Source: a virus. From it: a stretch of 34,195 nt of DNA. The translations under genes and the position numbers were made by a program. Position 1 is the first letter of the stretch. Every line of letters starts with the position of its first letter. The DNA lies in the IMG/VR virus record IMGVR_UViG_3300005528_000119, positions 1 through 34,195 of that record; one strand, given 5' to 3'. The notes beneath the pieces were generated by a model. That model was not told the origin of the DNA, did not search any database, and saw nothing but the letters and a program-made list of their open reading frames with translations. Positions 1 to 27,300 of the stretch are shown piece after piece.

Positions 1-1091
1 CCGCCCTGTTGTTGACCACCGCTAGCCTGTGCTCCGGCTTGTGTGCCACCGGCGGATTGAGCACCGCCTTGTGCTTTACTGCTAACTCCTTGAACTCCGG
101 CTTTGGCTGCATCTTGTGCTGCTGCCATAAAAATTTTATCTAATTGGCCTTTACTTAACGCTTCTAGTAACAGATTATATTCGTATTCTAATGCTTCGCC
201 AAAACTAGGCTGTGCATTACGACTCCAATCTGCATCACCTACTTTGCCAGCTGGCTTTTTTCTTTGACGCTGTTGTTTTTGTTTTTGAGGTACTGGATTT
301 TGTTGTGGTTCTGTTTTCATTGTTACAGGATTAGAACCTGTTTGTGTTTTAACAAACTGATCAATTGCTCCACCAGTACTACTGGATTTACCAGCTGCTG
401 CTCGTTGTTCTCTTCGACGAACTGCACTCGGTGATTGGCTTTGAACGCCTGCAACCTTTCCACCGCCTTGCTTACGACCAGTTGATTGTTGTGGTGCAGT
501 TGTTGTGTCTGCAGCTGGCTTATTAACTGCTGTTCTAGGATCTGTTGTAGACGGTAATCCGCCTGCAGGTGCAGTTGCTCCGCCGGTGGATATTTTTTGT
601 TGTCCTCCACCTAGCTGATTACTAAAGTTGGGTTTCTGCGCCGGTTGTTTTTCTGCACTCGGTTGTGGTTGTTCTGGTTCTAGTTTAGGCTCAATTCTTC
701 CTTTTGGTTGAGGATTAGTATCTTGAGGAGTAGGTTGATTTCCCTGTTGAGGTTGTTCTCCTGGCTTGCCCTTAAACATTCCCTTGACAGCGTCCATGCC
801 TTTAGCAAGCACACCTTTGTCTGGACCTGCTGCAATAATTTTCTCAGCACTATCTGTAGGGATTCCTTTAGACTTTAAGAAAGCCAATACAATATCAGGT
901 TCGGCTGTTTGTCCTGTTTTACCAAGATACTCTTTGAAATCAGCAGACAACTGATTAGCCATAGTACCCGATTGTAATTTTCCACTTGCTGTAGGACTAA
1001 CTTTTGATAGTGATGTTAATCCAAACGATTTTAATGTACCCATCGGTGCTTCGTCTATTTTGTTTTCGACGATTAGATCTTTGACTTTCAT
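1..1091 (-). CDS. Gly/Gln/Pro-rich phage protein, C-terminus cut off by window edge
   Basis: An open frame runs from an ATG at 1091-1089 to the left edge with no stop: 363 codons plus two bases. The first ~95 residues look folded and start MKVKDLIVENKIDEAPMG; they include a small helical stretch (SADFKEYLGKTG, then DIVLAFLKSKGI). After that the protein becomes low-complexity, rich in Gln, Pro, Gly, Thr and Ala. A basic patch (AVRRREQRAAAGK) and a short segment, ALEYEYNLLLEALSKGQLDK, stand out as likely structured islands. The rest looks disordered. Upstream, AAGGA lies about 12 bases before the ATG, a modest ribosome-binding site. I do not recognise its function. The composition would suit a flexible virion or scaffold-like protein, but that is a guess. 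It follows the GIY-YIG gene on the same strand, separated by about 500 non-coding bases. Confidence 0.75.
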   Translation of the reverse strand, partial: MKVKDLIVENKIDEAPMGTLKSFGLTSLSKVSPTASGKLQSGTMANQLSADFKEYLGKTGQTAEPDIVLAFLKSKGIPTDSAEKIIAAGPDKGVLAKGMDAVKGMFKGKPGEQPQQGNQPTPQDTNPQPKGRIEPKLEPEQPQPSAEKQPAQKPNFSNQLGGGQQKISTGGATAPAGGLPSTTDPRTAVNKPAADTTTAPQQSTGRKQGGGKVAGVQSQSPSAVRRREQRAAAGKSSSTGGAIDQFVKTQTGSNPVTMKTEPQQNPVPQKQKQQRQRKKPAGKVGDADWSRNAQPSFGEALEYEYNLLLEALSKGQLDKIFMAAAQDAAKAGVQGVSSKAQGGAQSAGGTQAGAQASGGQQQG

Positions 1092-1587: not shown

Positions 1588-2031
1588 TTATTTTGCCTTG
1601 TTTTCTTGAGCCTTGAGTATATGTGAGCCGTGTACTCTTACTTGAATATGACCGTTATAATAGTCTTTTGATTCCAAAACTTTCTGCGTAAATTGTTCTC
1701 TAGCCTCAATATAACTGCATTCTGCCTTGGATTTACAGTAAAAAAGTATTTCTCTTGTGAAGTTTTCTGCGCCTAAATTTTGTACATCTGCTAGCAATTC
1801 TTGATTAGACCCGTAGTAATCACGCCAATCTGAATCAATTTTACTGCGAATTTTCTTTTTCTTTTTGTTGCCGTTTTTAAGTTTGACTGTTTTATAAGTT
1901 GTTTTTGAAAATTTTGCCAGCTTTTTGCCTATGTACTTGCGCCCAGATATCAAATTAGTGATGATGTAAACAAATCCTATACAATCTTCAGGTAATTGGT
2001 CTACAGTTTGTCCGTGATAAGTCCATGTCAT
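1588..2031 (-). CDS. GIY-YIG-type putative nuclease, 147 aa
   Basis: The N-terminal part matches the GIY-YIG fold. GFVYIITN at residues 19-26 corresponds to the GIY strand, and GRKYIGKK at residues 30-37 to the YIG strand. A lysine-rich insert (KKKKK at 56-60) follows, then SDWRDYYGS at 67-75 and ECSYIEAREQF at 104-114, which could supply the acidic metal ligand. Family members cut DNA at single strands or junctions and include free-standing homing endonucleases. The ATG at 2031 overlaps the stop of the upstream 78-residue gene by four bases (ATGA), so it looks like a stable operon member and not a recent insertion. The role here is unknown. Whether all catalytic residues are present cannot be settled without an alignment. 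Confidence 0.7.
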   Translation of the reverse strand: MTWTYHGQTVDQLPEDCIGFVYIITNLISGRKYIGKKLAKFSKTTYKTVKLKNGNKKKKKIRSKIDSDWRDYYGSNQELLADVQNLGAENFTREILFYCKSKAECSYIEAREQFTQKVLESKDYYNGHIQVRVHGSHILKAQENKAK

Positions 2032-7422: not shown

Positions 7423-9780
7423 ATGCCATTAAGCGTTTATAGTCCAAAGGTAACTGCACCTGCTTCAAAGGTACAAAAAGGTTCAGCATTTCAAACTACC
7501 AATGAGCGTCCGGCTAGTGCTACAACAAAGGTGGGTCAAAATACTGATGGATCAGTTTCAGCGGCACCGTCTTCTGCTAATACAAATAACGCTTCTAATG
7601 CCAGCGGTAGTGGCAGTAACGATAGCGTTTTTACATATAGCCCCTCATATAAATCAGAATTAATTTCTAATCCATTAGATAGCTTTGCATCTTATTCGCC
7701 ATTATGGACATTGGCAGTTTTAACTCCTAAACAATTTAACAATCCTCGTTCCTACAGAGGATCGGGTGCAGCATTTGCCGGCGATGCATATGTAGATCCA
7801 GTTGGCAACGTAATTCAGTCTGGTATAATATTTGCGTCTGCTGGTAGGTATGATCAATATAGAGTAGGAACAGAATACGGGGCTCCCGAATATTTTGTTA
7901 ATAACTTTGTTATGACATCAGTTATTGCTCCCAATCAAAAAACAGGAAATTCTAACGCTATAAAATTTACGTTTGACATTTACGAACCTTATTCGATGGG
8001 ATTATTTTTACAAAGTCTTCAAAATGCAGCATTAAAAGCAGGGTATGCTAGTTACTTAGACAACACACCTTACCTTTTAAAATTAGACTTCCAAGGATAT
8101 AAGGATGACGGTACTCCGGTAAAATTAAAAGTATCAAAATATTTTACCTGTAAATTATTATCAGTAAAATTTGATGTAACAGAATCAGGAAGTTCTTACA
8201 AAGTTGAAGCAATACCTTTTAATCATCAGGCGATGGGTAAAGTTACTAATACCATTTATAAGGATATTACTCTAGTTGGCTCAAGTGTATTAGAATTGTT
8301 AGCTACGGGCGAACAATCTTTATCAGCAGTTTTAAATGAAGAACAAAAAAATAATGTAAAAAATGGTAACCATCAAACTAAAGAAAATCAATATGTCTTT
8401 ATATTTCCCAAGGATGGAAATGATTCTTTTGGGTTAGATGCTGAAACGCCAGATGTTAGCGGAGGAGCCACTGTTACACCATTTGAATACATTCCGGTAA
8501 AAGTTATTTCTCCACCTTCTGCTACAACAAATTTTGGTAATAATGAAATTGGAAACAGCGATATGGGATTCAATGCTGCCTCGGGTGGTACATACCCTAT
8601 GCAAAGAGAATCATCATCATATAATCCTGATACTGGTAAATTAGATAAATCAAAAGTTGAAATGAGTGCAACTAAGAGAGAATTTAAATTTACGCAAGGT
8701 CAAACAATCACTCATATTATAACACAAATCATTATTAGTAGTAAATTTGGTCAAGAAACGTTTAAAAAAATCTCTGAAGCCGACGGAACGATTGCTTGGT
8801 TTAAAATTGATGTACAAATTCAATTACTTGATTTTGATACTGTGGCAAAAGATTTTGCTAAAAAAATAATTTATAGAATTGTACCTTATCGGGTACATTA
8901 TTCTTTCTTTATGAATCCAACTTCTGCTGTTGGCGGATATCCGGGATTAGAAAAGAAAATTGCCAAAAGATATGATTATATATACACTGGTCAGAATAGT
9001 AATATAATAAAATTTGATATGCAGTTTAATACTGCGTTCTTTTCAGGTGCTAATCCCTCCCCACCGGATAAGACAGGTGCAGTTGAGAATCGAGGATCGC
9101 AATCGTCGGCTGCTAAAGTAGTTACAAAATATGTAACACAACCAAAAGCTGGGGTAGAAACAATCACAGCTAAATCTGGAGTTGCTCCAATTAAAAATGA
9201 CCCTGCATTATTATGGAAGCAATATTCCGGAGGTAGTAGTGACTCGAGTCCGGAGAAAAAAGTTGCTGAAGCGTTTCAACGCAGTTTCTTAAACAGTGGA
9301 GATATGATTGTCTGTAATATTGAACTGCTAGGAGATACTTTTTGGTTGATTGATAGCGGAATAGGTAATTATATAGCTCCAAAATTTGATGATGCCGTAA
9401 CCATAGACGGAACTCCTACTTATGAAGGTAGTGATGTTTATATCTATGTTACTTTTAGAACTCCGTCGGATGTGTTAGAAGGAAAGGGATTGTACGGTTT
9501 TCCTAATGAAGGAAAAATTAGTGGGTTTAGCGGAATATACAAAATTTTAAGTTGCGAAAGCAAATTTAACGACGGAAAATTTACTCAATTATTAAAGATG
9601 AATAGAATGCCAGGTCAAGCAACAGATTACAATATAGAAACACAACCAAAAATAGATCTTTCGTCGGCTCTACAAGTTCAAGAATCGGGTGTAGTTACAT
9701 TTGATGGAGTAACAGTAGAGCCAGACCCAGATCTTCGATCAGATGCCGGTTTTGCAAATACAGATGGAGACGAAGCATGA
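7423..9780 (+). CDS. Probable baseplate hub protein (gp27-like position), 785 aa
   Basis: A large structural protein between gp53 and gp5. In contractile-tailed phages the central hub that binds the gp5 spike is expected near here. Residues 1-70 are a Ser/Asn/Thr-rich, disordered lead. Residues 80-290 form a folded region (SPLWTLAVLTPKQFN, FTFDIYEPYSMGLFLQSLQ). A helical stretch starts near residue 425 (TQGQTITHIITQIIISSKF), followed by RIVPYRVHYSFFMNP and RYDYIYTGQNSNIIKFDMQF. The C-terminal third includes GDMIVCNIELLGDTFWLIDS. The length is twice T4 gp27 (391), and I see no direct motif for gp27; the assignment rests on order and on the gp5 overlap. The stop overlaps the gp5 start by four bases. 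Confidence 0.6.
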   Translation: MPLSVYSPKVTAPASKVQKGSAFQTTNERPASATTKVGQNTDGSVSAAPSSANTNNASNASGSGSNDSVFTYSPSYKSELISNPLDSFASYSPLWTLAVLTPKQFNNPRSYRGSGAAFAGDAYVDPVGNVIQSGIIFASAGRYDQYRVGTEYGAPEYFVNNFVMTSVIAPNQKTGNSNAIKFTFDIYEPYSMGLFLQSLQNAALKAGYASYLDNTPYLLKLDFQGYKDDGTPVKLKVSKYFTCKLLSVKFDVTESGSSYKVEAIPFNHQAMGKVTNTIYKDITLVGSSVLELLATGEQSLSAVLNEEQKNNVKNGNHQTKENQYVFIFPKDGNDSFGLDAETPDVSGGATVTPFEYIPVKVISPPSATTNFGNNEIGNSDMGFNAASGGTYPMQRESSSYNPDTGKLDKSKVEMSATKREFKFTQGQTITHIITQIIISSKFGQETFKKISEADGTIAWFKIDVQIQLLDFDTVAKDFAKKIIYRIVPYRVHYSFFMNPTSAVGGYPGLEKKIAKRYDYIYTGQNSNIIKFDMQFNTAFFSGANPSPPDKTGAVENRGSQSSAAKVVTKYVTQPKAGVETITAKSGVAPIKNDPALLWKQYSGGSSDSSPEKKVAEAFQRSFLNSGDMIVCNIELLGDTFWLIDSGIGNYIAPKFDDAVTIDGTPTYEGSDVYIYVTFRTPSDVLEGKGLYGFPNEGKISGFSGIYKILSCESKFNDGKFTQLLKMNRMPGQATDYNIETQPKIDLSSALQVQESGVVTFDGVTVEPDPDLRSDAGFANTDGDEA

Positions 9781-11426
9781 GTCAGGATATATGGGAATCG
9801 TCTGAAAATACTTCTCGTAGAAATATGGGAACAGGAATATACAAGGCTATTGTAGTAGGCCATGTTGATCCTTCATATATGGGGACATTGCGTGTTTGTC
9901 TATTAAGAGAGCAGGGTAATGATAAATTTGACGTTAAACAGCAATATTCTGTCAAATGTGCAACACCATTTTATGGATCAACCGATTTTAATTTTCAAGG
10001 TCAAAACACTGCTGCTAAAACAAATGCACAAACTGGATTTGATGATACACAAAAAAGTTACGGAATGTGGTTTGTTCCTCCTGATGTAGGCGTAACAGTT
10101 CTATGTATGTTTGCCAACGGCGAGCCAGATGATGGATTTTGGGTGGCATGTGTACCAGATAAATTTGCCAATCATATGATACCAGCTATTGGCGGTAGTT
10201 TAGAATTAGATATTAATGCGGCAGATAAAAAAAGATATTCTACAGAAATGCCGCTACCTGTAGCAGAAATTAATAGAATTGCAAATGATTTAAAAAATTC
10301 CACTAAGGTTGAAAAAATTCCCAAACCAGTCCATCCAATTGCGGATAGATTTTTACAACAGGGATTATTAGAAGATGATTGTCGAGGAACGTCACCATCA
10401 ACTGCTAGGCGCAATCTTCCAAATATGGTATTTGGAATTTCAACTCCTGGTCCCTTAGATCAAAAAGGTAAAAAAGTAAAGATAGGCGATTCTCCTAAAC
10501 CAATTCCGGTAAGTAGATTAGGTGGTACACAGCTGGTAATGGACGACGGAGATGATCAATATGTTAGAAAAACTTCGGCAGACAAGGGTGGAGTAGAATA
10601 TGCCGATACTCTAAACGGTGAAAAGGGTCAAGATAATATTCCTTACAGCGAGTACTTTAGAATACGAACTAGAACAGGTCATCAGTTATTATTTCACAAC
10701 AGCGAAGATTTAATTTATATTGGCAATGCCAAAGGCACAACCTGGATAGAATTAACCAGCAATGGAAAAATTGATATTTTTGCAGATGACAGTATAAGCA
10801 TCCATACACATAACGATTTAAACATCCGTGCCGATAGAGACATTAATTTAGAAGCAGGTAGAAATATTAATATGGCCGCTACAGGTCAATATAAAAGTGC
10901 TAAAAATTTATATGGAACTCCAACAACAGGCAGTGATGGTGTTGTTAGAGATGAGGCTAAGCGTGAGTCTGGAAGAATTCATCTTGAAGCTGCAGGAAAT
11001 TATAATTTATTAGTTGGAAAAAATGGAACAATATTAGTAAATGGTAATAGTGATGAAGTTGTTCTTCAAGACAAAAAAATTACTGTTCAAGGCGGTTACG
11101 ATTTAAAAGTTGGTAAAGATACAAAGATTACTACCGTAGGAAATACTGACGTAAAGTCTGGTAAAAATTATACAGAACAAGCGGCACGAATCGATATGAA
11201 TGGTCCAAAAGCCAAAGAAGCTACAGAAGCTACAGTAGCCCAACCGTTGAATAAACGAGAGAATTTTATCAACGATACTAATCTTGGATGGGAAAAGAAA
11301 TATCAAGATACGAAAACGTTGTCAAGCATTATGCGTAGAGTTCCCATGCACGAACCTTGGCTAGGACACGAAAATTTTGCTCCAACAATTTGGACCAAAG
11401 AAAACACCGATAGGGACTTTGATTAA
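9777..11426 (+). CDS. 5: gp5-like baseplate spike protein without lysozyme domain
   Basis: Central spike (puncturing) protein. Residues about 20-135 form the OB-fold of gp5/VgrG proteins: YKAIVVGHVDPSYMGTLRV near the start, then MWFVPPDVGVTVLCMFANGE and GFWVACVPD. Residues about 320-480 hold short beta-helix repeats (GKIDIFADDSISIH, NDLNIRADRDINLEAGRNIN), which form the needle. The C-terminus carries a conserved-looking block, RVPMHEPWLGHENFAPT. T4 gp5 has a lysozyme domain between OB-fold and helix. Here the connecting ~185 residues show no lysozyme-like sequence, although the total length (549) is close to T4 (575). Its start overlaps the upstream hub gene (ATGA), with GGAGA as a ribosome-binding site. 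Confidence 0.9.
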   Translation: MSQDIWESSENTSRRNMGTGIYKAIVVGHVDPSYMGTLRVCLLREQGNDKFDVKQQYSVKCATPFYGSTDFNFQGQNTAAKTNAQTGFDDTQKSYGMWFVPPDVGVTVLCMFANGEPDDGFWVACVPDKFANHMIPAIGGSLELDINAADKKRYSTEMPLPVAEINRIANDLKNSTKVEKIPKPVHPIADRFLQQGLLEDDCRGTSPSTARRNLPNMVFGISTPGPLDQKGKKVKIGDSPKPIPVSRLGGTQLVMDDGDDQYVRKTSADKGGVEYADTLNGEKGQDNIPYSEYFRIRTRTGHQLLFHNSEDLIYIGNAKGTTWIELTSNGKIDIFADDSISIHTHNDLNIRADRDINLEAGRNINMAATGQYKSAKNLYGTPTTGSDGVVRDEAKRESGRIHLEAAGNYNLLVGKNGTILVNGNSDEVVLQDKKITVQGGYDLKVGKDTKITTVGNTDVKSGKNYTEQAARIDMNGPKAKEATEATVAQPLNKRENFINDTNLGWEKKYQDTKTLSSIMRRVPMHEPWLGHENFAPTIWTKENTDRDFD

Positions 11427-11428
11427 CT

Positions 11429-11869
11429 ATGGCTAGCAAATTATATAACCAAAAAACCGTTGCAATTAACAAAGCTTCGACCGGAGATAACAATTCTAGT
11501 TTCTTTACCTATAAAGGATTTAGTAGTCAGCAAACTAAAAAGAAATTTAAATTATACGATATAGATCTTGTCAAGCAAGATTTAATAAATCACTTTCATA
11601 TTAGAAAAGGTGAAAAACTAGAAAAACCTGATTTTGGTACAATTATATGGGATATGATTTTTGAACCAATGACTGAAGAAAATAAAAGATTAATAACTAA
11701 AGACGTTGAAGACATTGTAAATTATGATCCAAGGATTACAATTACTAAAGTTACTATAGACACTACAGATCAAGGAATGAGAATAGAAGTAGACTGTGTT
11801 TATATGCCTTTTAATGTTAACGAACGCATGACTTTTAATTTTGATAAAGAAAATAATATTATTAGATAA
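11429..11869 (+). CDS. 25: gp25-like baseplate wedge subunit (gpW/gp25 family)
   Basis: Small wedge protein that helps hold gp6 and gp53 and contributes to sheath initiation. The family pattern is plain: DLVKQDLINHFHIRKGEKL (residues about 46-64), then PDFGTIIWDMIFEPMTEE, followed by an alternating strand region, ITITKVTIDTTDQGMRIEVD. It has 146 residues, against 132 in T4. The start ATG lies two bases after the gp5 stop, with AGGGA inside the gp5 end acting as ribosome-binding site. A 47-base gap separates it from gp6, the longest gap in this part of the block. Confidence 0.93.
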   Translation: MASKLYNQKTVAINKASTGDNNSSFFTYKGFSSQQTKKKFKLYDIDLVKQDLINHFHIRKGEKLEKPDFGTIIWDMIFEPMTEENKRLITKDVEDIVNYDPRITITKVTIDTTDQGMRIEVDCVYMPFNVNERMTFNFDKENNIIR

Positions 11870-11916: not shown

Positions 11917-14900
11917 ATGACTACAACTGCAAGACAAAATAATTTAATTTTAGCTGAAGATTGGACAAAAATTTATCAGACATTTAAGAATGCTGATTTC
12001 AAATCCTACGACTTTGAAAATCTTCGCAGAGTAATGATCACCTATCTGCGTGAAAACTATCCAGAAGACTTTAATGATTATATTGAAAGCAGTGAATATC
12101 TTGCACTTATTGATGTTATTGCATTTTTAGGTCAAAGTCTAGCATTCCGTATTGATCTTGCATCTAGAGAAAATTTCATTGATCTTGCAGATAGAAAAGA
12201 GAGTGTATTAAGATTAGCAAAAATGCTTTCTTATAATGCCAAAAGAAATATAGCAGCTTCAGGGTTATTAAAGTTTGATACTATAACCACAACAGAACCC
12301 ATAATAGACAGTAATGGAAAGAATCTAGCACAACAAACTATTGTATGGAACGATCCTACAAACTCTAATTGGTATGAGCAATTTATTTTAATATTAAATT
12401 CTGCAATGACTCCAAACACTGAATTTGGAAAAAGCCAAGGCGAAGCAACTATTGATGGAATTAAGACTCAGCAATATGTGTTCAATACATTTTCTTTAGA
12501 TGTTCCAATTTTTTCTTTTACTAAAACAGCCGCTGCAAGAACTACAGTTTTTGAATTAGTAAGTACACTAATTGATTCAGAAAAAAATATCATTAAAGAA
12601 GAAGCGCCGACACCCGGATCCCAACTAGGATTTATTTTTAAAACAGACGGTAAAGGAGCATCAAGCTCTAATACAGGATTTTATCTGTTGTTTAAACAAG
12701 GCAGTATGGAGTTAGCAGATTTTGCAATTCCTCAACCAACTACAAATGAAAAAGTGTCTGTAGAAAATGCAAACATTAATAATGACGATGTTTGGTTGTT
12801 TTCTTTAGGTGCAAACGGCACACAAGGAGAACAATGGACTCAGGTGTCAAATTTATCTGGAAACAATATTCTTTATAATAGTGTTAGTAAAAATATTAGA
12901 AATATCTATAGTGTAATAACTAAGGCAGATGATAAAATTGATTTGCAGTTTAGTGATGGTATTTACGGAAATTTGCCGCAGGGAAGTTTTAGAGTTTATT
13001 ACAGAGTTTCTAACGGTTTAAATTATTCTATAAGCCCAAGCGAAATGAGAGGAATTAGTATTGAAATCCCTTATGTTAATAAGAGGGGTGTTTCTAATAC
13101 ATTGTCTCTATCATTAGGATTAAAATATACGGTATCAAATTCTTCCTCATCGGAAGATATCGAAAGTATTAGATCAAAAGCACCTGCAGTTTATTATACA
13201 CAAAATCGAATGATTACTGCGGAAGATTATAATCTAGCTCCATTAGATGCTTCCCAAGAAATTTTAAAAGTCAAAGCAGTTAACAGAACTACTAGCGGTA
13301 TTAGTCGTAATTTTGATATTATTGATGCTACTGGAAAATATTCTACTGTAAATGTTTTTGCAGATGATGGTTTAATTTATAAAAACGAAATAGAAAAAGC
13401 ATTATCTTTTAAATTTTCTAATCGTCCGCAGATTGTTAATTTTTTAAGAAACACAATCGAAAAAGAAATTTCTTCAACAAGTGTTTATAATTTTTATCTA
13501 ACAAGATTTGATAGAGTGGTGTTTACAGATAATAATATACACTGGCTACAAGTAACCAAAGATAGAGACTTATCTACCGGATATTTTCGTAATGTCAACG
13601 ATCAAACAAAAATTAAAGTGGGAAATTATACTTCCACTAACATGAGATTTTTTGAAGCAGGTTCTTTGGTAAAATTTGTAGCTCCAATCGGTAAAGCATT
13701 TAAAAATGGAGTCTTAGTTACAGCAAATGTTAATGATCCGTTTCAAACAGACAGACTATGGGTTAAAGTAGTTAATACAGTAGGCGACGGAACAAATGCC
13801 GATCGAGGTGTACTAGCGAACGGGTTAGGACCAATTACTTTTAGTGAAGTTGTTCCTACTGATGCTGTAATATCAAGAATTGTACCAAAGTTTATTACAG
13901 ATTTTGATGCAGCACTGGAAACCGAAATAACCAATCTAATGTTTAATCTTCAAAATTTTGGTTTAAGATATAGTATTGAAGATAGAAAATGGAGAATCAT
14001 TACTTCTTCAAATCTTAATATTAACAGTACATTTTTTAGTTCTGCACAAAGTGGTGATACTTCTGGGACCAATCTTGATGGATCTTGGATAGTTGCGTTT
14101 GTTTATACAGGAGTTCAGTATTCAATTCATATTAGAGAGCTTGATTATATTTTTGAAAGTTTAGAACAAAATAGATTTTATTTTGATAATCAAGAAAAAA
14201 TTTATGATTCAAAAAATGCAGCAGTAATTAAAGATCAAATTAAAATACTTGGAATTAATTCTAATTATACGAAAATTACACCTTTAAAACAGGATATATC
14301 TTTTGAAATCAGAGACAGCGTAAGATTTAATGATGGATATCAAAGTACTAGTTCTATAAAATTGGGATTTTTTGATTCTGATGATGACGGGATCATTGAT
14401 AATCCAGATGCATTTGAAATAGTTGCTGGCGAGGATAAAGATTTAAAATATCTATTTTTTCAAAGAACCATCGACGAATATGGTGCAGAAATTTACAAAT
14501 ACATAGAAAGTAGCGACGATGGAAATATTTTAGTTAAGGACAAAACAGCTAATGAGATAGGAAATATTAATGCCTATGATGTTGGACAACTAATATATTT
14601 TTATGATCAGTCTGAAGAAGTAGTCAAACGAGTTATTCAAACCAGCACTGGCAGTAAAACTTTTGAACTTGATAGTTCTTATAGAGCAAACATTGGAAGA
14701 AACTCAGTAAAGTTTCAATACATCCATAATGCAGGAGTAGACAGAAGAATTGATCCTAGTGTAAGTAATATTATCGATGTTTATCTATTAACAAAAAACT
14801 ATGAAATTGCCTATGTAAATTGGTTAAGAAATGACGGGACCAAACCAGTAGCACCAAACAGTAATGAATTAAGAACACAGTTTGGATCTAAACTAAGCTC

Positions 14901-15345
14901 TATTAAATCAGTCAGTGATGAAATAATCTATCATCCCGTACAATTCAAACCATTGTTTGGAGCAAAAGCAGATTCTCAGTTTAGAGCTCAGTTTAAGGTT
15001 GTAAAAAATCCTAATAAAACTATTAGCGATAATGATTTAAAGGTTAGAATTATTGGCGCTATTAATGAATTTTTTAATGTTGACGGTTGGGATTTTGGAG
15101 ATAAATTTTATTTTAGTGAATTAGCAACTTATGTTATTAACTCAGTATCTCCTGATATTAGTAATTTTGTTATTGTTCCAAGACAAATAAGTCAAGAGTT
15201 TGGAAGCTTGTTTGAAATACAATCCCGCCAAGATGAAATTTTTACCAATGCAGCAACAGTGGATGATATAGAAATTGTAACAGGCATTACCGCAGCAGAA
15301 TTAAATTTAGCTGCTACCTCAGTTATTAGTAATACGAGCCAATAA
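11917..15345 (+). CDS. 6: gp6-like baseplate wedge subunit (baseplate J family), 1142 aa
   Basis: Main wedge protein that forms the inner ring of the baseplate and contacts gp25, gp53 and gp7. The N-terminal block is characteristic: FENLRRVMITYLRENYPEDF (residues about 36-55), then EYLALIDVIAFLGQSLAFRI and RENFIDLADRKESVLRLA. A baseplate-J-like segment lies at about 405-462, with SIRSKAPAVYYTQNR and MITAEDYNLAP. The C-terminal part (about 930-1120) includes FKVVKNPNKTISDNDLKVRI and VDGWDFGDKFYFSEL, similar in layout to gp6 C-termini. At 1142 residues it is much longer than T4 gp6 (660). The additional sequence lies mainly in the middle (about 500-900). AGGGA precedes the ATG by seven bases. 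Confidence 0.93.
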   Translation: MTTTARQNNLILAEDWTKIYQTFKNADFKSYDFENLRRVMITYLRENYPEDFNDYIESSEYLALIDVIAFLGQSLAFRIDLASRENFIDLADRKESVLRLAKMLSYNAKRNIAASGLLKFDTITTTEPIIDSNGKNLAQQTIVWNDPTNSNWYEQFILILNSAMTPNTEFGKSQGEATIDGIKTQQYVFNTFSLDVPIFSFTKTAAARTTVFELVSTLIDSEKNIIKEEAPTPGSQLGFIFKTDGKGASSSNTGFYLLFKQGSMELADFAIPQPTTNEKVSVENANINNDDVWLFSLGANGTQGEQWTQVSNLSGNNILYNSVSKNIRNIYSVITKADDKIDLQFSDGIYGNLPQGSFRVYYRVSNGLNYSISPSEMRGISIEIPYVNKRGVSNTLSLSLGLKYTVSNSSSSEDIESIRSKAPAVYYTQNRMITAEDYNLAPLDASQEILKVKAVNRTTSGISRNFDIIDATGKYSTVNVFADDGLIYKNEIEKALSFKFSNRPQIVNFLRNTIEKEISSTSVYNFYLTRFDRVVFTDNNIHWLQVTKDRDLSTGYFRNVNDQTKIKVGNYTSTNMRFFEAGSLVKFVAPIGKAFKNGVLVTANVNDPFQTDRLWVKVVNTVGDGTNADRGVLANGLGPITFSEVVPTDAVISRIVPKFITDFDAALETEITNLMFNLQNFGLRYSIEDRKWRIITSSNLNINSTFFSSAQSGDTSGTNLDGSWIVAFVYTGVQYSIHIRELDYIFESLEQNRFYFDNQEKIYDSKNAAVIKDQIKILGINSNYTKITPLKQDISFEIRDSVRFNDGYQSTSSIKLGFFDSDDDGIIDNPDAFEIVAGEDKDLKYLFFQRTIDEYGAEIYKYIESSDDGNILVKDKTANEIGNINAYDVGQLIYFYDQSEEVVKRVIQTSTGSKTFELDSSYRANIGRNSVKFQYIHNAGVDRRIDPSVSNIIDVYLLTKNYEIAYVNWLRNDGTKPVAPNSNELRTQFGSKLSSIKSVSDEIIYHPVQFKPLFGAKADSQFRAQFKVVKNPNKTISDNDLKVRIIGAINEFFNVDGWDFGDKFYFSELATYVINSVSPDISNFVIVPRQISQEFGSLFEIQSRQDEIFTNAATVDDIEIVTGITAAELNLAATSVISNTSQ

Positions 15346-15346
15346 A

Positions 15347-18300
15347 ATGACAGATAAAGTTTTTGATCAAAGTGGATTACCAATAAGAAGATCAACGGAT
15401 TTTCTTCCTTCTGTTTTTAAGACAGATGCCAACAGTAAATTTTTAGGTGGTGTTTTTGACCCACTAATACAGCCCGGAGTTTTAGAAAAAATTTCTGGAT
15501 TTATTGGGAGAAGATACGGTAAAAGTTATAACGGCAATGACATTTATATTGATACTGATAATACTTTAAGAAGTAGATATCAGTTAGAACCAGGAGTGGT
15601 TGTTACTGACGGCAACGGATCAGTAAACAATTTTTACGATTATTTAGATTTTAAAAATCAATTAAACTTCTTTTTTAATAAATTAGAAAGAGATGATTTA
15701 ATTACGCAAAGCCAGTGTTACTCGTGGGATCCTCCCATTGACTGGGATAAATTTGTTAATTTTAGAGAATATTACTGGCAGGTTAATGGACCGCCCTTAG
15801 TAGCTGTTGCAGGTCAAGCACAACAGATAGAATCGACTTATAGAGTTAGATCTGATGACACAGGCGATGTCCCGTCATGGATGTTTTATCCAGATGGACT
15901 GACATTTAATCCCAAATTAGTTTTGTATAGAGGCCAAACTTATAAGTTTGAGGTTAACTCTCCAAGAAATAAATTTTCAATTAGAACAACAAATTCAGTA
16001 GATCTTGTAATGGGAGAATTTAACCCATTAATGAATTACCAACCGGGCGACGTTGTTGAATTTAATAATAAACTATGGAAAGCAAAAGTCGATGTTTACG
16101 GTGACGGCAGTACTATTGATGAATTTTCACAAGATTGGGAATTAACTGAATTAATAGATGTTAACTATTATAATAAAGGTGTAATTAATAACGGTATTGA
16201 AGTTGGCACTGTTACATTCACAGTACCTGTAGATTCTCCTGATATGCTATATTATGTCAGCGATCAAGAGCCTTTGCGAACAGGCCAATTTATTATCAAG
16301 GATATTACAGAAAATACATTTATAGATGTTGAAAAAGAAATCTTACAAAAGTTAGCCTACACTAGTAGTAATAATGTAAAATTTACTAATGGTTTAATGA
16401 TTTCCTTTTTAGGTAAAACATATCCTGAAAAATATAATTCTGGACGTTGGATAATTGAAGGTGTTGGTAAAGGTATTAATCTAATAAATTTTGACGATTT
16501 GACCCCGCCAATTACTTCTAATAATCAACCTGAAATAATTTTTGATAACGAGGGATTTGATACCGTTCCTTTTGATGAAGCAGCTTTTTACCCTGGCGTA
16601 AAAGATTATATTATTTCAAATCGTGCTAGTAATGATAATAATCCTTGGTCTAGGTCAAATAGATGGTTTCATAAAAGTGTTATAGAATATGCTCATCAAC
16701 TTAACAATTCGTCTCCAGATGCAGACGAATCATCAAGAGCAAAAAGACCAATTATCGAATATCATCCTAATATTCAATTGTTTAATCACGGCTCTACCTC
16801 TAAAAAGTCAGTTGATTTTATAGATAATTACACATCTGATATTTTCAGTGTTATCGAAGGAACTAGTGGTTATAATATTGACGGAGAGGCACTATTCAAT
16901 GGTGCAAGATTATTAGTTACTGCCGATACAGATACTCTAGTTAACAATAAAATTTATATTGTTAATTTTATATCAACACAATATAGTGGCAATACTGGTA
17001 GACAAATTAGTTTAGTTGAAGCCAGTGATGCAGTTAGTCAATCTGGCGAATGTGTTCTTATAAACAAAGGTAAAAAGTATAGAGGAAAGATGTTTCATTA
17101 TGACGGAACTGCTTGGTCAAAGAGTCAAGAAAAAACAGCAGTAAATCAAAGTCCGTTATTTGATGTGTTTGATTCTGACAAAGTTTCTTTTGGAAATTCT
17201 ACCAAATATCCTGTTACAAATTTTAAGGGAACAACAATTTTAAGTTATAAACTCGGCAACGGTATTGTGGATTCTGAAATAGGAATTTCATTAAGTTATC
17301 TTAATATTGATAATATTGGCGACGTTTTATTTGAAATAAATTGGGATGTTGATTCTTTTACCTATCAAAATCAGTTAGTTAAAACTTTAAAAATTTCTAG
17401 CGGATTTTTAAAGTTTAATACTTTAAACGGCGAAGTCTATTCTAATACTTGGATTAAAACGGATAAAGAATTCTTACAACCAATAATTGATAGTCAAGTA
17501 ATAACATCGGTAACTAAATCAATTACATTTAACAGTGTCAACTGGAACGAGTCGACTACTGAAAGAATTATTTTTTACAAAAACGGTTCCTTATTTAAAG
17601 ATCAGTTTACAAGAACTGGAAATAGAAATCAAACTTTTGTATTTGCGAATAATTTTGCAGTTAATGATGTTATAACAATTAAAGTATATACCGATGCAAC
17701 TCCAGATCAGGGATATTATGAAATTCCTGTTGGATTAGAAAAAAACCCTTTAAATCAAGATTTAACATCTTTTACCTACGGTCAAGTTTTAGATCATTTA
17801 GGAACTATGCTTGAACTCGATACAAGATTTACTGGATTATATCCGGGCAATAGTAATATTAGAGATATTTCAGGATTTCAAAAATACGGCAGAAGATTAT
17901 TAAAGCACGAAGGAATTTCTGCATTATCACTAATGTTGCTCTGCGACAAAGAAATCAATGTTATTAAATCTATTGATTATGCTGCTAAAAGTTATAATCA
18001 GTTTAGAAATAATTTTTTAAATCTAGCAGTTACATTAGCATATGACTTAAACCCAATTAATTTTGTAGATCAAATTATTACAGAAATGAGCAGAATTAAA
18101 ACTGCAAGTAATTCGTTTGCAGATTCTGACATGATTGGATCTGGCTCATATAAAAAAGTAATTTGTAAAATTGAAGATCAAATTAAAACATTTGCATTAA
18201 ATGAAAAATTTAGTCTTGACACCTTATCAAGAAAAGCTGTCTATGTTTACAAAAATAATGTTCAATTATTGCACGGAGCAGATTATACATTTAATCAAAC

Positions 18301-21300
18301 CTTTGGTTACATAAACTTTTCTGGTAATTTAAATGAAGGTGATGTATTAGAAGTGCGGGAATATAATACCACTTCGTTTAATTTTATACCCTCAACTCCT
18401 ACTAAGTTGGGACTTTATAAAAAGTATGTTCCAAGAATTTTTATTGACGACACATACATAACACCAACTAAAGTTATACAAGGACATGATGGAAGTATCA
18501 CAGTTGCCTTTAATGACTTTAGAGATGATTTGTTATTAGAATTAGAAAGAAGAATTTATAACAATATTAAAGTTCAATACGAAAGTACTGTTTTTGATAT
18601 TGATGCAACATTGGGCGGTTATTATAATACGGGTATTTTTACTAAAGAACAAGTTGATTCAATTTTAGAACCATATTTTTTAACGTGGATTACTAGCGGT
18701 AATGTAGATTATGTAAACAATACATACTTTGATTCTGAAAATACATTTACCTATACTTACAATTTAATGACTGATTTTACTCAGCAAAAAAATCTTGTAG
18801 GTTGGTGGAGAGGTGTTTATCAGTGGGTTTATGATACTGATAGACCACATACATGTCCTTGGGAAATGTTAGGGTTTAGTGAAAAACCAATTTGGTGGGA
18901 CGAAGAATATGGACCTGCTCCTTATACTAGAAATAATTTAATTCTTTGGGAGGATATTCGTGATGGCAGAATTCGTCGAGGATCTCGTGCAGGCACTCAT
19001 CAAAGATATCGACGATCTACTATTTTATCTCATATACCCGTAAATGATCAAGGACAGTTGCTATCTCCGTTGCAGGCAAATTTAGCACAAGATTTTGTAT
19101 TAATTAATTCAAAAGGTAATTTTAAGTTTGGAGATATTAGTCCTGCAGAAGCCGCATGGAGAAAGAGTCCACAGTATCCATTTGCCTTAATGTCTGCGCT
19201 ATCATTGTTAAGACCGTTTGAATTTATTTCTAAGTCTCTTGATTCATTTAGAGTTAAAACAAATATAATTGGACAAACAGTTTATTCTGAAACAAATAAA
19301 TTTATTGATATTAATTCAATACTAATTCCATCGGTAAATGGTTTACAAACAACAGGTTTATTAAATTATATTATTGATTATATTAAAGGACAAGATAAAG
19401 ATACTGAGTTATTAACTAAAAAAATTAAAAATTTAGATATTAAATTATCAAATAAACTGGGGGGATTCGTCGATGCTACTCAGCAAAAATATCTTTTAGA
19501 TAGTAAAAATCCTAAATCAAAATCGAGCAGTATTTTTATTCCTCAAGAAAATTATAATATAATTTTTAACATTGGAACACCGTTCTTAACTATTAACTAT
19601 AGTGGCGTAATAATTGAAAAAGTTAATACTGGATGGAGATTATCTGGGTATGACAACAAAAATCCTTACTTTAATTATTATGAAGCGGTAGAATCTAAAA
19701 CAGATCCGTTTATTACAGTTGGTGGAGTAACTGACAGTTTCTTGGTATGGGAACCTAACAAAAATTATCAAATTGGTCAAACAGTTCAGTATCAGGGCAA
19801 ATATTTTAAAGTTTTATCATCACATCAAAGTATCACATCCTTTGATGAAAAGTTGTTTAAACAAATATCAAAACTTGAGCAGGTTGGTGCAGTCGAAGTT
19901 TTAAAAAGACAGAATTTTAATTTTAATACTTTGAAAAAATTATCCTACGGAACAGTATTACCAACTTTACAATCTGTTGCTAATTTTATTTTTGGATATG
20001 ATCAATACCTATTAACTTTAGGAATGATATTTGATCAATACAATTATGAAACTCAAACGGTTAATAATTGGACCACCTCAGTTAAAGAATTTATGTTTTG
20101 GAGTAAGCATAATTGGGCAGAGGGACAATTAATAACTCTAAGTCCGGCAGCATACAAGTTTCATATTAAATTTGGGTTAGGTTCAGTTGATAACTTATTA
20201 GATAGTTTTTATGATTATGCCATTTATAAGCGTGATGGCACAGTTTTGTCAAGTTCGTTTATTAACGTTAACAGAGATTATCAAGAATTTTCTATTACTG
20301 TAACAGATACTCTAGATGGAATCTATTTTGCAAATATTAACTTTGTATTAAAAGAACATGTAGTATTATTTGATGATAAAACTGTTTTTAATGATGTGTT
20401 ATACGATAAAACTTCTGGATATAGACAGGATAGAGTTAAAGTAATCGGTTTTAGAACCACAGACTGGGACGGAGATTACACAAGTCCTGGATTTATATTT
20501 GACAATGTTAATGTACAGTCGTGGCAACAATATACAGATTATAATTTGGGTGATATTGTACGCTATAGAGAATTTTTCTGGACTAGTAAGAAAAAACAAG
20601 AAGGTACAATAGAGTTTAATGAAACTAACTGGACTAAATTAGATAACATTCCTAGCAAAGGTTTGGTAGCAAACTTTGATTATCGCATTAATCAGTTTGA
20701 AGATTATTATGATCTTGATTCAGACGGCCTTGGATCAAGCCAACGAGATCTAGCACGTCATTCTATTGGTTATCAATCGAGAGAATATCTTAATAATCTA
20801 AGTGAAGATTCAGTTTCTCAATTTAAAATCTATCAAGGATTTATTAGAGAAAAAGGTACAAAAAATGCTATTACTAAAATCTTTGACAAATTAAGTAGAA
20901 ATAATACTGATAGTGTAATTCTCAAAGAAGAATGGGCATTTAGAGTAGGTGACTTTGGCGGAACAGATCAATATAAAGAATACGAAATTGCACTAAACAA
21001 AGGTCAGTTTAAACTAACTCCTCAGCCTCTTTTAATTAATAACTCTATTGAATATTCTGAAACCAATGACTTATATTATCGAATTCCAATTAATGATTTT
21101 GTAATTAAACCTTACGGTGCAGATAAAAATATAATTCCAGTTGCTTATCAAAATGTTCCAAATAGAACCGCTGGATATGTAAGAGAAGATCAAGTAGATT
21201 TTAAAACTGCAAAGTTAGAAAACGTTCTCAGTTTATCTGCAGATACTATTAATTACGGTGATCATATTTGGACTACATTTGTAGAACCAGATCAATGGTC

Positions 21301-24300
21301 AGTTTTTAGATACACACGATCTAATATTTTAATTGATAGTTTAGAAGTTAATAACTCAGATAAAATAGTTACATTAACCTGTAATGTAAGACATAATTTT
21401 ACAGTCGATCAAATTATAGGAATTGAGGGAATAGCTAGATTATCCGGTTATCATAAGATTATTTCAGTTGAACCTTTTACTTTTAATGTTGCATTACCTA
21501 CAGGCGGCGATCCAGAAATAGATAACAGTTCATTATTAGCAGTTGGTATATTTGTTGATTCACGACTAACAACAGCTAAAGAATTATCAGATCCTCAAAT
21601 TGCAAAATTAAAAGTAGGCGATAAACTATGGATCGATAATGACGAAAACAATAGATGGGAAGTAATAGAAAAAATAAGTTCAATTTACACCAGGAATGAA
21701 ATTAGTGATTATGGTTATTCAATTCCCCGAGGTGCAGGAACAGCAGTAATTCATTTAACATTTAGAAATCAAACTATTGCGTCACTCCCAGGATCAAATG
21801 GAGTAGCAGTTTACAAAGACAATTTTGACGGAACATTAAGAAATGTTCAAACTCTAATAGCTCCAGATTCTTTTACAACAAACTTACTAGGAAAGTTTGG
21901 ATATTCGTTACATGCTACATCTGACGAACAATGGTTATTTGTTGGTTCACCGTTAGTTAGTGGCATAGGATCTCGTTTTCAAGGAATTTTTTCTGAAACA
22001 GAAGATTACGAACAAAATGATATAGTATTGTTTGCAGGCAAACTTTGGAGAGCAACACGTAATCTTAATGGTGATGGAAGTACTATCACTTTAGAATCTG
22101 CAGATTGGGAATATGTTTATAATATTCCGGCAGATACATATCAAGATTCTTATGATCCAAGCAGATTTTATAGAAAAGGTTCTATAGTTAAATTTGGTAT
22201 TTTTTCATATATTGCTTTACAAAATACTACAAACAATTTACCAATCAATCAAACTTATTGGGCGTTAACTACCGCTGGAAATTCTGGTTATATCGAACAA
22301 GGTATGGTTTCAATATACAGATGGTATGAAGAACAATGGAATTATGAAGGATCGTTTGTAAGTCCTCGTCCTCAACCAAACGAATTATTTGGATTTAGTA
22401 TAACTTCCGGAATTTCAAACGGAAAATATTATCTAGCTATTTCTGCTCCTGGAGCAGTTAATGCCACAGGAGCAGTATATCTTTATACATTAAATGATAC
22501 AGACAATGATAATCCAATTTGGGAATTAATAGAAGACGAATCGTATCAGGGAGTGTATGATCCATCAAGACAATACATTGCAGGTTCGATAGTTTATTAC
22601 GCTAATAAGTTATGGAAAGCAAAATCTAATCAGCAAGCCGATGGTAGCACAATTACTGTAAATTCTGCAGATTGGATCGAGATGGAAGATACAATTACAC
22701 AAAGTTCTCTTCCGACTAGTGCTGCAATGGTATCTGACGGTACAATTTCAGAAGTAGGGTTACTTCCGGATTCGTCAATATTTAGATTACCAGAAATTGT
22801 CAAACAAGGCGATCAGTTTGGTACCTCAATTGCATTTAATAGTGATGCATCTACATTAATAGTAGGGTCGCCATACGGGGATGATAGATCATTTACTAAT
22901 TACAAGGGTGTGTGGAAATCTTATACACTTTATGGGGGCGGCGATGTTGTTAGATACGAGTCTAACTATTATCGTGTAAATGGTTCTACATCTATTAACG
23001 ATATTCCAACAACAGGAATTAATTGGACACTAATTGATATTGGTACTTTCGATAGTTCAAATAAAAAATTTGGTAAAGTATTTGTTTATAAACGTAATGA
23101 TCTCGGAGTTTATAGATTATTTCAAACAATTAACAATCAGAATCTATCGTTATTAAGTGATATCGGACTTCAAATAATTGAAACCGGAGATCGTTTAGGA
23201 TCGTCGGTTGACATTGACGCTACTGGTGACACTTTGGTTGTATCGGCCCCGTATGGTGATTATGGTTATGTTGACAACGGATATGTTTATGTTTTTAAAT
23301 ATTCTCGAACAAATGAAAAATACGTTATAACAAATAAAATTAGTGGATCCGATGCATCAAACTTTGAGTTATACGGTACACAGGTAAAAATTTCTAATGA
23401 TGCTAATTCATTAGTAGTTTCAGGTCAAAATTCAATTACAAAATTTAATATTAAGTACGATTTAAGTAAAACTAGATTTGATCAGAATACCACTACATTT
23501 TTTGATAAACGAGGAAACACCGGTCGAGTTTATGTATATGAAAAACAAGATACAGAGTACTACCTTGCCGAAGAATTAGATCCGCCAAATTTAATACCTA
23601 ATGAAAGTTTTGGGTTCTCATTAGATCTTAATGACAATGTAATAGTTGTTGGTTCTCCAACACTTAAAACAGCTCAGGGAGTTATTGGTCAAGTTAGAAA
23701 ATTTAAACGTTCTGCCACAGCTAAAACTTGGTCAACAATCGGTCAACAGGAACCGCAGACAAGAATAGATTTAATTAAGAGTCTTGCGTTATACGACGTT
23801 GAAAATAATAAAAAAATTACAGATGTTGATATTGTTGATCATTACAAATATAAGTTTTTAGGAATTGTAGAACAAGAAATTTCTTTTAAAAATCCCTACG
23901 ATCCTGCAATTTATTCTAAAGGAAATGATTCGGTTATTGTTGATTCTTCAAGAACTTGGTATGAAACTAATGTAGGAAAGATTTGGGTTAATTTTAAAAC
24001 AGTTAAATGGACTAACTACGAACAGGGAGAGTTATCCTATAAAATTGGTCATTGGAATGAATTAGCAGATTCGTCGTCAGTGGATGTGTACGAGTGGGTA
24101 GAAACAAAAATTTTACCGTCTCAATGGTCGTTAATTGCCGATACTACTGAAGGTTTGGCATTAAACATTTCTGGACAACCGTTATATGCCAACGATACTG
24201 TTTATAATATTAAAGAAGTATATGATGAAAAAACAGGAACAGTACTCACTAGTTATTATTATTACTGGGTAAAAAATTCTGTAGTTGTTCCGGATAGCAG

Positions 24301-27300
24301 TAATAGAAAAATATCAGCAGCAGAAGTTGCCTTGTATATTACAAGTCCAATTAGTTCTGGAATTCCTTTTGTTGGGTTTATATCTCAAGATAGATTATTG
24401 GCATATAATTTTGAAAAATATCTTCCTAGTACAAGTGCCGCATTGAATATTAAATTCAATAACTCTAATAAAAATATTAATTTAATACATCATGAATATG
24501 AACTGTTAACGGAGGGACAGGGCGATAGTGTACCTACTTTACAATTAGAACAAAAATGGATTGATAGTTTAATTGGCTATGATCAGGCTGGTAACAAAGT
24601 TCCCGATCCAAATCTAGCCCCTAAACAAAAATATGGAATTTTATTTAGACCAAGACAGAGTATGTTTGTTAACAAATCAACTGCTCTTAAAATTTTTGTT
24701 GATGATGTAAATGCAGTATTAAGAGAAAAACCATTTGCTGAAACATTAGATTTTACAAATTTAAATGCAATAGATGAAGTTCCAACCGAAACATTAAAAT
24801 TATATGATGTCTCTGTCGAAACATATGCAGAGTTAATCACAATTAATGCTGCAAGAGTTAGACCAGCATTATTAAGAGCTAATTTAATTGATGGACAAAT
24901 TGAATCGATTGATATTGTTGATTCTGGATTTGGTTACAGAGTAGCTCCCCCTGTATCAATAGTTGGGACAGGATCTGGTGCTAGAGTTACATTAACAATT
25001 GATAATTCTGGTAAAGTAACAGGTTACGTTATTAATAATCCAGGCAAAAAATATGACAATGTAATTTTAAATGTAAGAGGTTTTTCTGTGTTAGTTAAAA
25101 CAGACGAGACCTACAGAAATTACTGGGCAATTTATCAATTTAATGAAAGAAACAAAACATTCTACAGATCCTTAACTCAAGACTTTGATACTACAAAGTA
25201 TTGGTCTTATATTGACTGGTGGGCTCAAGGTTATAATTCTTCAAATAAAATTATTGACGAAATTCCAGGAACTTATTACGAACCACAATTAGCTAAATTA
25301 ATAGATTTAAAAGTTAATGATTTAATAAAAGTTTCCGAATATGGAAGTGGCGGATGGGCTGTTTTAAAATTAATAAATCTTTCTGCTACTACTATAAATG
25401 AAAAATACGAATTAGTTGGAAGATACCGAGGAACTATTGAAATTTCTTCTTTAATCTACGATGATGCACAAAATCAAGTAGGATACGATAATGTTGGAAC
25501 ATATGATTTAATATCATACGATAATCAGCCAGTTAGCGAAACAAGAAATATTATTAAAGCAATTAAAGAAAATATATTAATTGATGAATTTAAATTTTAT
25601 TGGAATAAACTATTTTTTAATAGTATTCATTTTATTTTTTCTGAACAATTATATGTTGATTGGGCCTTTAAAACAAGCTTTTTAAATGCAATACATACTA
25701 TTGGGGATCTTGAACAAAAGTCTCATTATAAGAATGACAATCTTGAAAGTTATGAACAGTATCTAAAAGAAGTTAAACCTTATAGAACAAAAATTAGAGA
25801 ATTTACTAGTACATATAATTCTTTAGAAAATACACAATCATTACTGACTGATTTTGACCTTCCTCCTTATTACGAAGATACAGAAGGTAAATTAATCCCA
25901 GTAAAAACAAATAATGAAATTTTAAACACATATCCTTGGAAACTTTGGAAAGATAATAATACCTACAAAGTTATTGAGATAACGGTATATGATTCTGGTT
26001 CTGGATACATTAATCCTCCTACTGTTGTAATTAACGGCGGCGGTGGCAGCGGTGCCGAAGCATTGGCATATGTTTCTAACGGTAGTGTAACCGGAGTTGT
26101 TATTACTAAAGAGGGTATAGGATATACATCTGCACCTACAGTTACATTAGTTGGCGGATTTTCTGATACCGGAACTCAAGCCAAAGCTAGTGCTATAATT
26201 GGAAAAGGAACAATTAGATCTTTTGATATTACTATGAAATTTGATAGAATATCAAAAAATGGAACTTATTCTTCTTTTGTACAAGACGAAACAATTGTAG
26301 CCAGCGGAGTTACTTCTGTTTTTAATTTAAAATATCCTCCATCAAGAGATAGATCAAAGATAACTGTTTATCTAAACAACGGATTGATTTTGTCAAATGA
26401 GTATGAATTATCTTTATTTGAACAAATGATTGATGGGTTTACTTTCATTCAAGGAAGAATTAAATTTTTATTAGTTCCGGCTACAGGGACTGTAATTAGA
26501 ATCATATATTCAAAGAACGATGAAATTTTAGATAGTGTAGATAGGATTAAAAAATATTATAATCCGTTAGATGGAATGACTGGAAAAGATGTATCTCAGT
26601 TAATGACCGGCATTGACTTTGGCGGTGTAATTATTCAGGGAAGTTCTTTCAATTCAACCGGAGGTTGGGATGCATTGCCTTGGTTTAGCGATAGTTGGGA
26701 TAGTGTTACACCAAACTCGGATTACTATGTTATAGCCGATGGTAGTACTACTAGTATTCAGTTACCGTACACTCCGTCAATTGGGCAAGCAATTAATGTT
26801 TATATCAAACGAGGTGATTTTTCTACCTTGCCAGATAAAACTGGAAGATTTACTCGCATCGATGATCCTTACTATAACGTATATGATGGTTCAACAGTTC
26901 AACCAAATGGTAAAAGATCAGCACCTGCCGGGGTATTAATGAATACATTTATTGGTAATGGAGTGATTAAAGATATTGACTTGCCTATATTATTAGCAAC
27001 ACAAGCCGGGGATATATTAATCTTCCGTCCAAGCACAAGTGACGGTTCGGTCAATATTACTGATACAAATGTTCAAGACACTCTTTTAAGTGGTGGTTCG
27101 TTACTTAATACCAACAATATATATTCTACTGCTAACGGTTTAACCGCAGAAGAAATAGTTGTATCTGGGGATAAATTTATTTCCCCAGATCAAGTTCCTT
27201 CTCCGGAGGAAAATGTACCAGGACAGGTATTAGATACAGTATCGATTAAAACTTTTCATAGAACATATGTCGGAGCTGCACAAGTTAAGAGTAATGTTTA

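Follow-up and report, generated by a model that had tools for sequence, protein, structure and literature searches.

The window analysed here, that is, the whole stretch of 34,195 nucleotides of the IMG/VR virus record IMGVR_UViG_3300005528_000119, contains a T4-like baseplate operon. A small wedge protein (7122), two virion proteins (6008 and 7423) and a gp5-like hub protein are followed by gp25, gp6, one giant ORF, and then a small protein and fibre-like proteins (Table 1). The giant gene thus lies after gp6, as gp7 does in T4. Homology to T4 gp7 was rejected on sequence, with hhalign probabilities of <1% for four scaffold profiles. When a conserved part of the scaffold was modelled with AF2 (residues 761-1720 only, pLDDT 76.7), gp7 was absent from the best 50 Foldseek matches, none of which was listed with E <0.001, and the sequence search of the scaffold against solved structures gave nothing convincing. 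The gene order of the window is the same in phage PA5oct, whose homologue of the giant protein, gp355, carries an annotation as a virion protein identified by ESI-MS/MS. Given no gp7 homology and no significant solved match for the scaffold, it is therefore from gene order and the PA5oct proteomics that we strongly infer a baseplate protein; the position directly after gp25 and gp6 agrees with the baseplate location proposed in the initial annotation.

Table 1. Features of the giant protein and its gene neighbourhood in the window
Feature	Residues of giant protein	Window positions	Strand	Evidence or remark
gp5-like baseplate hub protein		9777..11426	+	phrog_13211
gp25-like baseplate wedge protein		11429..11869	+	phrog_43
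gp6-like baseplate wedge protein		11917..15345	+	adjoins giant ORF upstream; phrog_10646, 2e-293
Giant virion protein, 4631 aa		15347..29242	+	T4 gp7 gene position, directly after gp25 and gp6
Module outside propeller	224-268	16016..16150	+	family profile 51.2 bits; Pfam 0.0064
Conserved scaffold	765-1718	17639..20500	+	common to PA5oct, RaK2, Atu_ph07, SCTP-2
Module outside propeller	1464-1515	19736..19891	+	giant protein's best Pfam match, 3.9e-8
Module outside propeller	1724-1770	20516..20656	+	family profile 36.7 bits; Pfam 0.0077
Predicted seven-bladed FG-GAP_2 propeller with inserted modules	2134-2801	21746..23749	+	Pfam, AF2, Foldseek
Blade 0, four predicted strands, no FG-GAP motif	2134-2171	21746..21859	+	AF2, pLDDT mostly 86-94
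Blade 1, strands 1-2 (FG-GAP repeat 1)		21896..21955	+	AF2
Module a, 2-3 loop of blade 1	2212-2263	21980..22135	+	family profile 58.6 bits; Pfam 0.018
Module b, 2-3 loop of blade 1	2266-2311	22142..22279	+	family profile 23.4 bits; Pfam none
Blade 1, strands 3-4		22301..22363	+	AF2
Blade 2 (FG-GAP repeat 2)		22385..22531	+	AF2
Module c, 4-1 loop between blades 2 and 3	2400-2450	22544..22696	+	family profile 61.6 bits; Pfam 0.0016
Blade 3, strands 1-2 (FG-GAP repeat 3)		22814..22876	+	AF2
Module d, 2-3 loop of blade 3	2518-2567	22898..23047	+	family profile 26.3 bits; Pfam 0.033
Blade 3, strands 3-4		23066..23134	+	AF2
Blade 4 (FG-GAP repeat 4)		23192..23347	+	Pfam; strongest FG-GAP_2 match, 1.5e-7, over cut-off
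Blade 5 (FG-GAP repeat 5), 2-3 loop of 32 residues		23366..23581	+	AF2
Blade 6 (FG-GAP repeat 6)		23606..23749	+	AF2

Compared with Pfam, the whole giant protein matched FG-GAP_2 (PF14312; E 7e-11, 42.6 bits, cut-off 23) and CBM_5_12 (PF02839; E 2.4e-15, 56.7 bits, cut-off 26.2), and residues 2100-2860 alone matched them as well (3.4e-14 and 53.2 bits; 4.3e-9 and 36.7 bits, respectively). The integrin-type FG-GAP family PF01839 gave matches below its cut-off only, for the whole protein and for the region, and the calcium motif D-x-D/N-x-D/N-G was not found in residues 2140-2800. A profile of the region also picked up integrin alpha E, integrin alpha M, a chitinase domain and All3316, an injection-system protein of Anabaena, at weak E-values of 0.002-0.06. 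In the AF2 model of residues 2100-2860, built on a 45-sequence alignment (pLDDT 73.9, pTM 0.73), confidence was mostly good for the blades, good for module a, moderate for modules c and d, and unreliable for module b (30-40). Strand counting in this model gave seven four-stranded blades, the six with FG-GAP motifs being preceded by an N-terminal one that lacks the motif. In Foldseek, the PDB entries that matched best were integrin alpha headpieces, with E 6e-14 and TM over target no higher than 0.61. Viral matches as long as the whole propeller reached TM over target of 0.70-0.73. Judging from the AF2 and Foldseek scores, the propeller probably closes into a ring. An FG-GAP propeller with CBM5/12-like modules in its loops, first read from the letters alone in the initial annotation, was in this way borne out by profile search over both cut-offs, by predicted structure and by the integrin headpieces, and neither of the outcomes named there as speaking against it arose. 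The six repeats placed at residues 2182-2791 stood as FG-GAP repeats, but the extent is wider and the blades are seven; as for the four modules set in linkers between blades, only c was confirmed in such a position, a, b and d being housed within blades.

Counting the three outside the propeller along with its four, the giant protein has seven CBM5/12-like modules, which score 23-62 bits with a family-built profile that includes the window's own modules among its source sequences, as compared with a maximum of 5.1 in 200 whole-protein shuffles. Taken singly in Pfam, modules a, c and d fall below the curated cut-off and b is not matched, while the region as a whole exceeds it; module c also matches All3316. 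The AF2 model of residues 761-1720, which holds the module at 1464-1515, matched the ChiA1 domain (1ed7) at TM 0.73 over target. The ligand of CBM5 is bound by an exposed aromatic pair, Y-W or W-W, and the core is held by two further aromatics, which in CjCBM5 are Y265 and W299 (PMC8449059). Among the propeller modules, the core Y and W were invariant (128/128), and the exposed-pair positions were aromatic in 0/128 for the first and in about 6/128 for the second. The position equivalent to Trp687 of ChiA1 is not aromatic in modules a-d. To judge by these residues, modules a-d seem to have retained the CBM5/12 fold but not its known binding site, so that, of the sugar-binding patches originally suggested, the core was found and the known ligand-binding residues were missing. 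With the exposed aromatic pair and the Trp687 equivalent missing, classical chitin or cellulose binding is therefore not supported. It is very unlikely, in our opinion, that the four modules bind a chitin-like or cellulose-like polysaccharide exactly as CBM5/12 domains do and thereby give avidity, even though the protein's Pfam CBM_5_12 match lies over the cut-off and a profile match to a chitinase domain was obtained. The modules may bind glycans via non-classical residues.

When the loops were classed by blade position, the 1-2 and 3-4 loops were found to measure 1-8 residues in 45 sequences, and the inserts of >30 residues all lay in 2-3 loops (modules a, b and d, and the 32-residue loop of blade 5) or in the 4-1 loop (module c). 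In propellers, the 2-3 and 4-1 loops lie on the same face, as has been established for integrins, whose alpha chains bear the I domain between blades 2 and 3. As the module-bearing loops are all of the 2-3 or 4-1 class, the four modules should therefore share one face of the predicted ring, the I-domain face of integrins, the likeness to integrin blades 2 and 3 being one of loop class and not of proven blade number, since our blade numbering starts at blade 0. Integrin alpha, the best solved-structure match, thus resembles the window's propeller in its FG-GAP repeats, its seven blades and the restriction of large inserts to the 2-3/4-1 loop face. It differs in that the latter belongs to a phage baseplate-region protein, has FG-GAP_2-type repeats that lack the calcium motif, and carries CBM5/12-like inserts rather than an I domain.

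Alignment with the counterparts in PA5oct, RaK2, Atu_ph07 and SCTP-2 revealed homology over most of the length of the giant protein, with no recognisable counterpart in these four for residues ~2140-2800. The corresponding slot measures 334 residues in PA5oct, 220 in RaK2, 1546 in Atu_ph07, 521 in SCTP-2 and 910 in the window. A propeller fills 110 of the 115 distinct slots measured, many of the 110 having been recruited with the propeller as query; the five without it are those of the four phages just named and of the relative L173. Recruitment based on the scaffold, which is free of that bias, left L173 as the only measured slot lacking the propeller. Here the core is 56% identical to the window, the two flanks are joined directly, and FG-GAP_2 was not found anywhere in the 216,704-bp record. 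The layout recurs in related phages, with both Pfam families matched in 15 of the 15 members of the first alignment and with 110 distinct propeller slots. The number of modules per propeller varies among these 110 (0 in 2, 2 in 17, 3 in 86 and 4 in 5), and in one relative, L175, the propeller is present with no module in it. A segment with an identical propeller was also found in the 209,836-bp record IMGVR_UViG_3300008111_000002. No match was returned by tblastn of phage records with the propeller or by megablast with the window's baseplate region, and no relative of the propeller was found in bacterial and archaeal genomes. The propeller is widespread in one family of large, uncultivated, mostly freshwater phages, and in the aligned sequences it appears as an insertion in a fixed slot of the scaffold.

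Such an insertion might be neutral or selfish and have no role in adsorption, coming, for example, from stand-alone FG-GAP propeller genes of related phages. Genes of this kind (FG-GAP_2) do exist in a related record and in Atu_ph07, and L173 keeps an intact giant ORF without the propeller. We nevertheless consider this reading highly improbable, for the open frame, the seven-blade pattern and many invariant residues are kept at ~40% identity, with 110 distinct sequences.

Module b is an extra one; a module at this position was seen in the window's virus and weakly in the closest other virus (L120) only, and is missing in the relatives first aligned. It resembles one module of a 1114-aa protein in a twin genome with a score of 107, as compared with 25-63 against modules a, c and d and a maximum of 63 in 500 shuffles, which may reasonably be read as module shuffling within the genome.

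With a little better than an even chance, the propeller is predicted to be an exchangeable platform for display, through which the virion meets the envelope of its host, and we favour this over a purely architectural role. In these large T4-like phages, the giant protein encoded where gp7 lies in T4 would have taken up a seven-bladed FG-GAP_2 propeller in a slot of constant position. Its 1-2 and 3-4 loops are short and vary little, and with the CBM5/12-fold modules held in the 2-3 and 4-1 loops the ring would be decorated on a single face, like that of integrin alpha chains. The propeller would presumably be exposed at the virion surface, and its decorated face would most likely touch the capsule, lipopolysaccharide or a surface protein of the host during adsorption, which would amount to an adhesion role, with modules gained, lost or exchanged as hosts change. 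Consistent with this, the same virus encodes another protein with an array of such modules, and Gp119 of phage Vp4, a baseplate wedge protein bearing CBMs, binds host cells (PMC11406892); Alg11 of AlgoCIS (PMC8894135) is a further precedent. On the other side, the CBM5 pair and Trp687 are not conserved, and the scaffold matched no solved baseplate protein. Furthermore, the A-1(L) neck fibre has a distal CBM that did not bind the host (PMC10966104), and CBM-fold modules on virions therefore need not be receptors.

Under the architectural reading, propeller and modules would serve for docking and spacing within the virion, where they would keep neighbouring wedges or tail fibres in place without binding any host structure. 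It is suggested by the aromatics, as only the fold-holding ones are kept and the known sugar-binding ones are not; by the recurrence of CBM5/12-like modules in the scaffold (residues 224, 1464 and 1724), which points to general building blocks; and by the match of module c to All3316, a protein with 18 chains in a baseplate structure. We regard it as rather unlikely, however, because module number and position vary and the whole propeller can be absent, which is easier to conceive for a peripheral than for a load-bearing part, and because the propeller diverges faster than the scaffold (38-41% against 50-58% identity to relatives).

Phages with FG-GAP propellers are known, and so are baseplate proteins with CBMs. 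Vp4 Gp119 (baseplate wedge 3) is likewise a contractile-tail baseplate protein with CBM-fold modules, missing in its Deep-Blue homologue, but it has no reported propeller, and its folds are CBM16- and Xyn10B-like instead of CBM5/12 (PMC11406892). AlgoCIS Alg11 is a baseplate protein extended by two CBMs, yet it also lacks a reported propeller, and its modules form a cage around the spike (PMC8894135). PA5oct gp355 (YP_010678859.1) has a homologous scaffold, the same gene order, detection in virions by mass spectrometry and one CBM5/12 module, whereas its slot has no propeller; the homologous vB_Pa-PAC2 protein bears the annotation of a chitin-binding type-3 domain-containing protein. Phage-encoded FG-GAP propellers are represented by the hemagglutinin A0A2L0UZX4 of Atu_ph07, a separate gene of ~400 aa, and by A0A6J5S3H5 of an uncultured Caudovirales phage, but neither was seen inside a baseplate giant with CBM modules. 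Our literature search, in which subscription journals were sparsely covered, returned no paper joining FG-GAP with phage baseplate, bacteriophage propeller or phage genome. The two together, with the modules sharing a single propeller face and the whole forming a cassette in a giant protein of the baseplate region, are undescribed in the literature searched, in line with the initial annotation, which knew of no phage baseplate so arranged.

In large contractile phages, host recognition is mostly explained by tail fibres. If our reading is true, a conserved baseplate protein whose fixed slot is occupied by a decorated propeller in one family, and by nothing or by something else in others, would represent a second, modular layer of recognition, for which L173 (no propeller) and L175 (propeller without modules) are natural controls. 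The integrin pattern, in which only one side of the ring bears inserts, would then be seen, as a predicted structure, in a phage virion protein. A more far-reaching version, which we put forward tentatively and hold to be less than evenly likely, is that of an integrin-like adhesin head serving as an interchangeable cassette, with a ligand face bearing re-purposed CBM5/12-fold modules, some of them from the virus's own pool, and with host recognition separate from the tail fibres.

Several further observations were made at and around the locus. On the minus strand of the window (1588-2031), a 147-aa ORF between other genes of that strand reads like a GIY-YIG homing endonuclease. Scaffold residues ~930-1010 (window ~18140-18380) form a small domain resembling, by reading, the tail-fibre adaptor domains known from nozzle-fibre complexes and from the N-terminus of CBA120 TSP4, both of which are among the top, albeit weak, Foldseek matches of the scaffold model. 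Residues 3538-3618 (window 25958-26200) match the PHROG head-closure Hc2 family via glycine-rich GsGY..PtV repeats, which also occur in the Atu_ph07 slot. A LamG-like lectin was suspected by reading in the slot of SCTP-2; Pfam gave nothing, and we do not claim it. In L027 (~14745-14755) and L012 (~12928), both near-identical to L022, deletions of ~166 bp and ~10 bp in or around propeller module c shift the frame of the giant ORF and represent either real variation at this module or assembly artefacts.

The 1114-aa protein (L204 4600-7944; ~124.6-127.9 kb of G001, the twin of the window's genome) has nine tandem CBM5/12-like modules and, after them, a stretch resembling by reading a parallel beta-helix, and multi-module proteins of 1800-3100 aa occur in related records. 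Finally, G006, the 151,108-bp record of L175, has three stand-alone FG-GAP_2 propeller genes close to one another at ~30.8-34.9 kb (L205 2262-6549). Their products measure 409-419 aa, with about seven nearly identical blades each, and the group lies next to an 805-aa collagen-like fibre protein; these propellers have apparently been amplified recently, in a fibre region.
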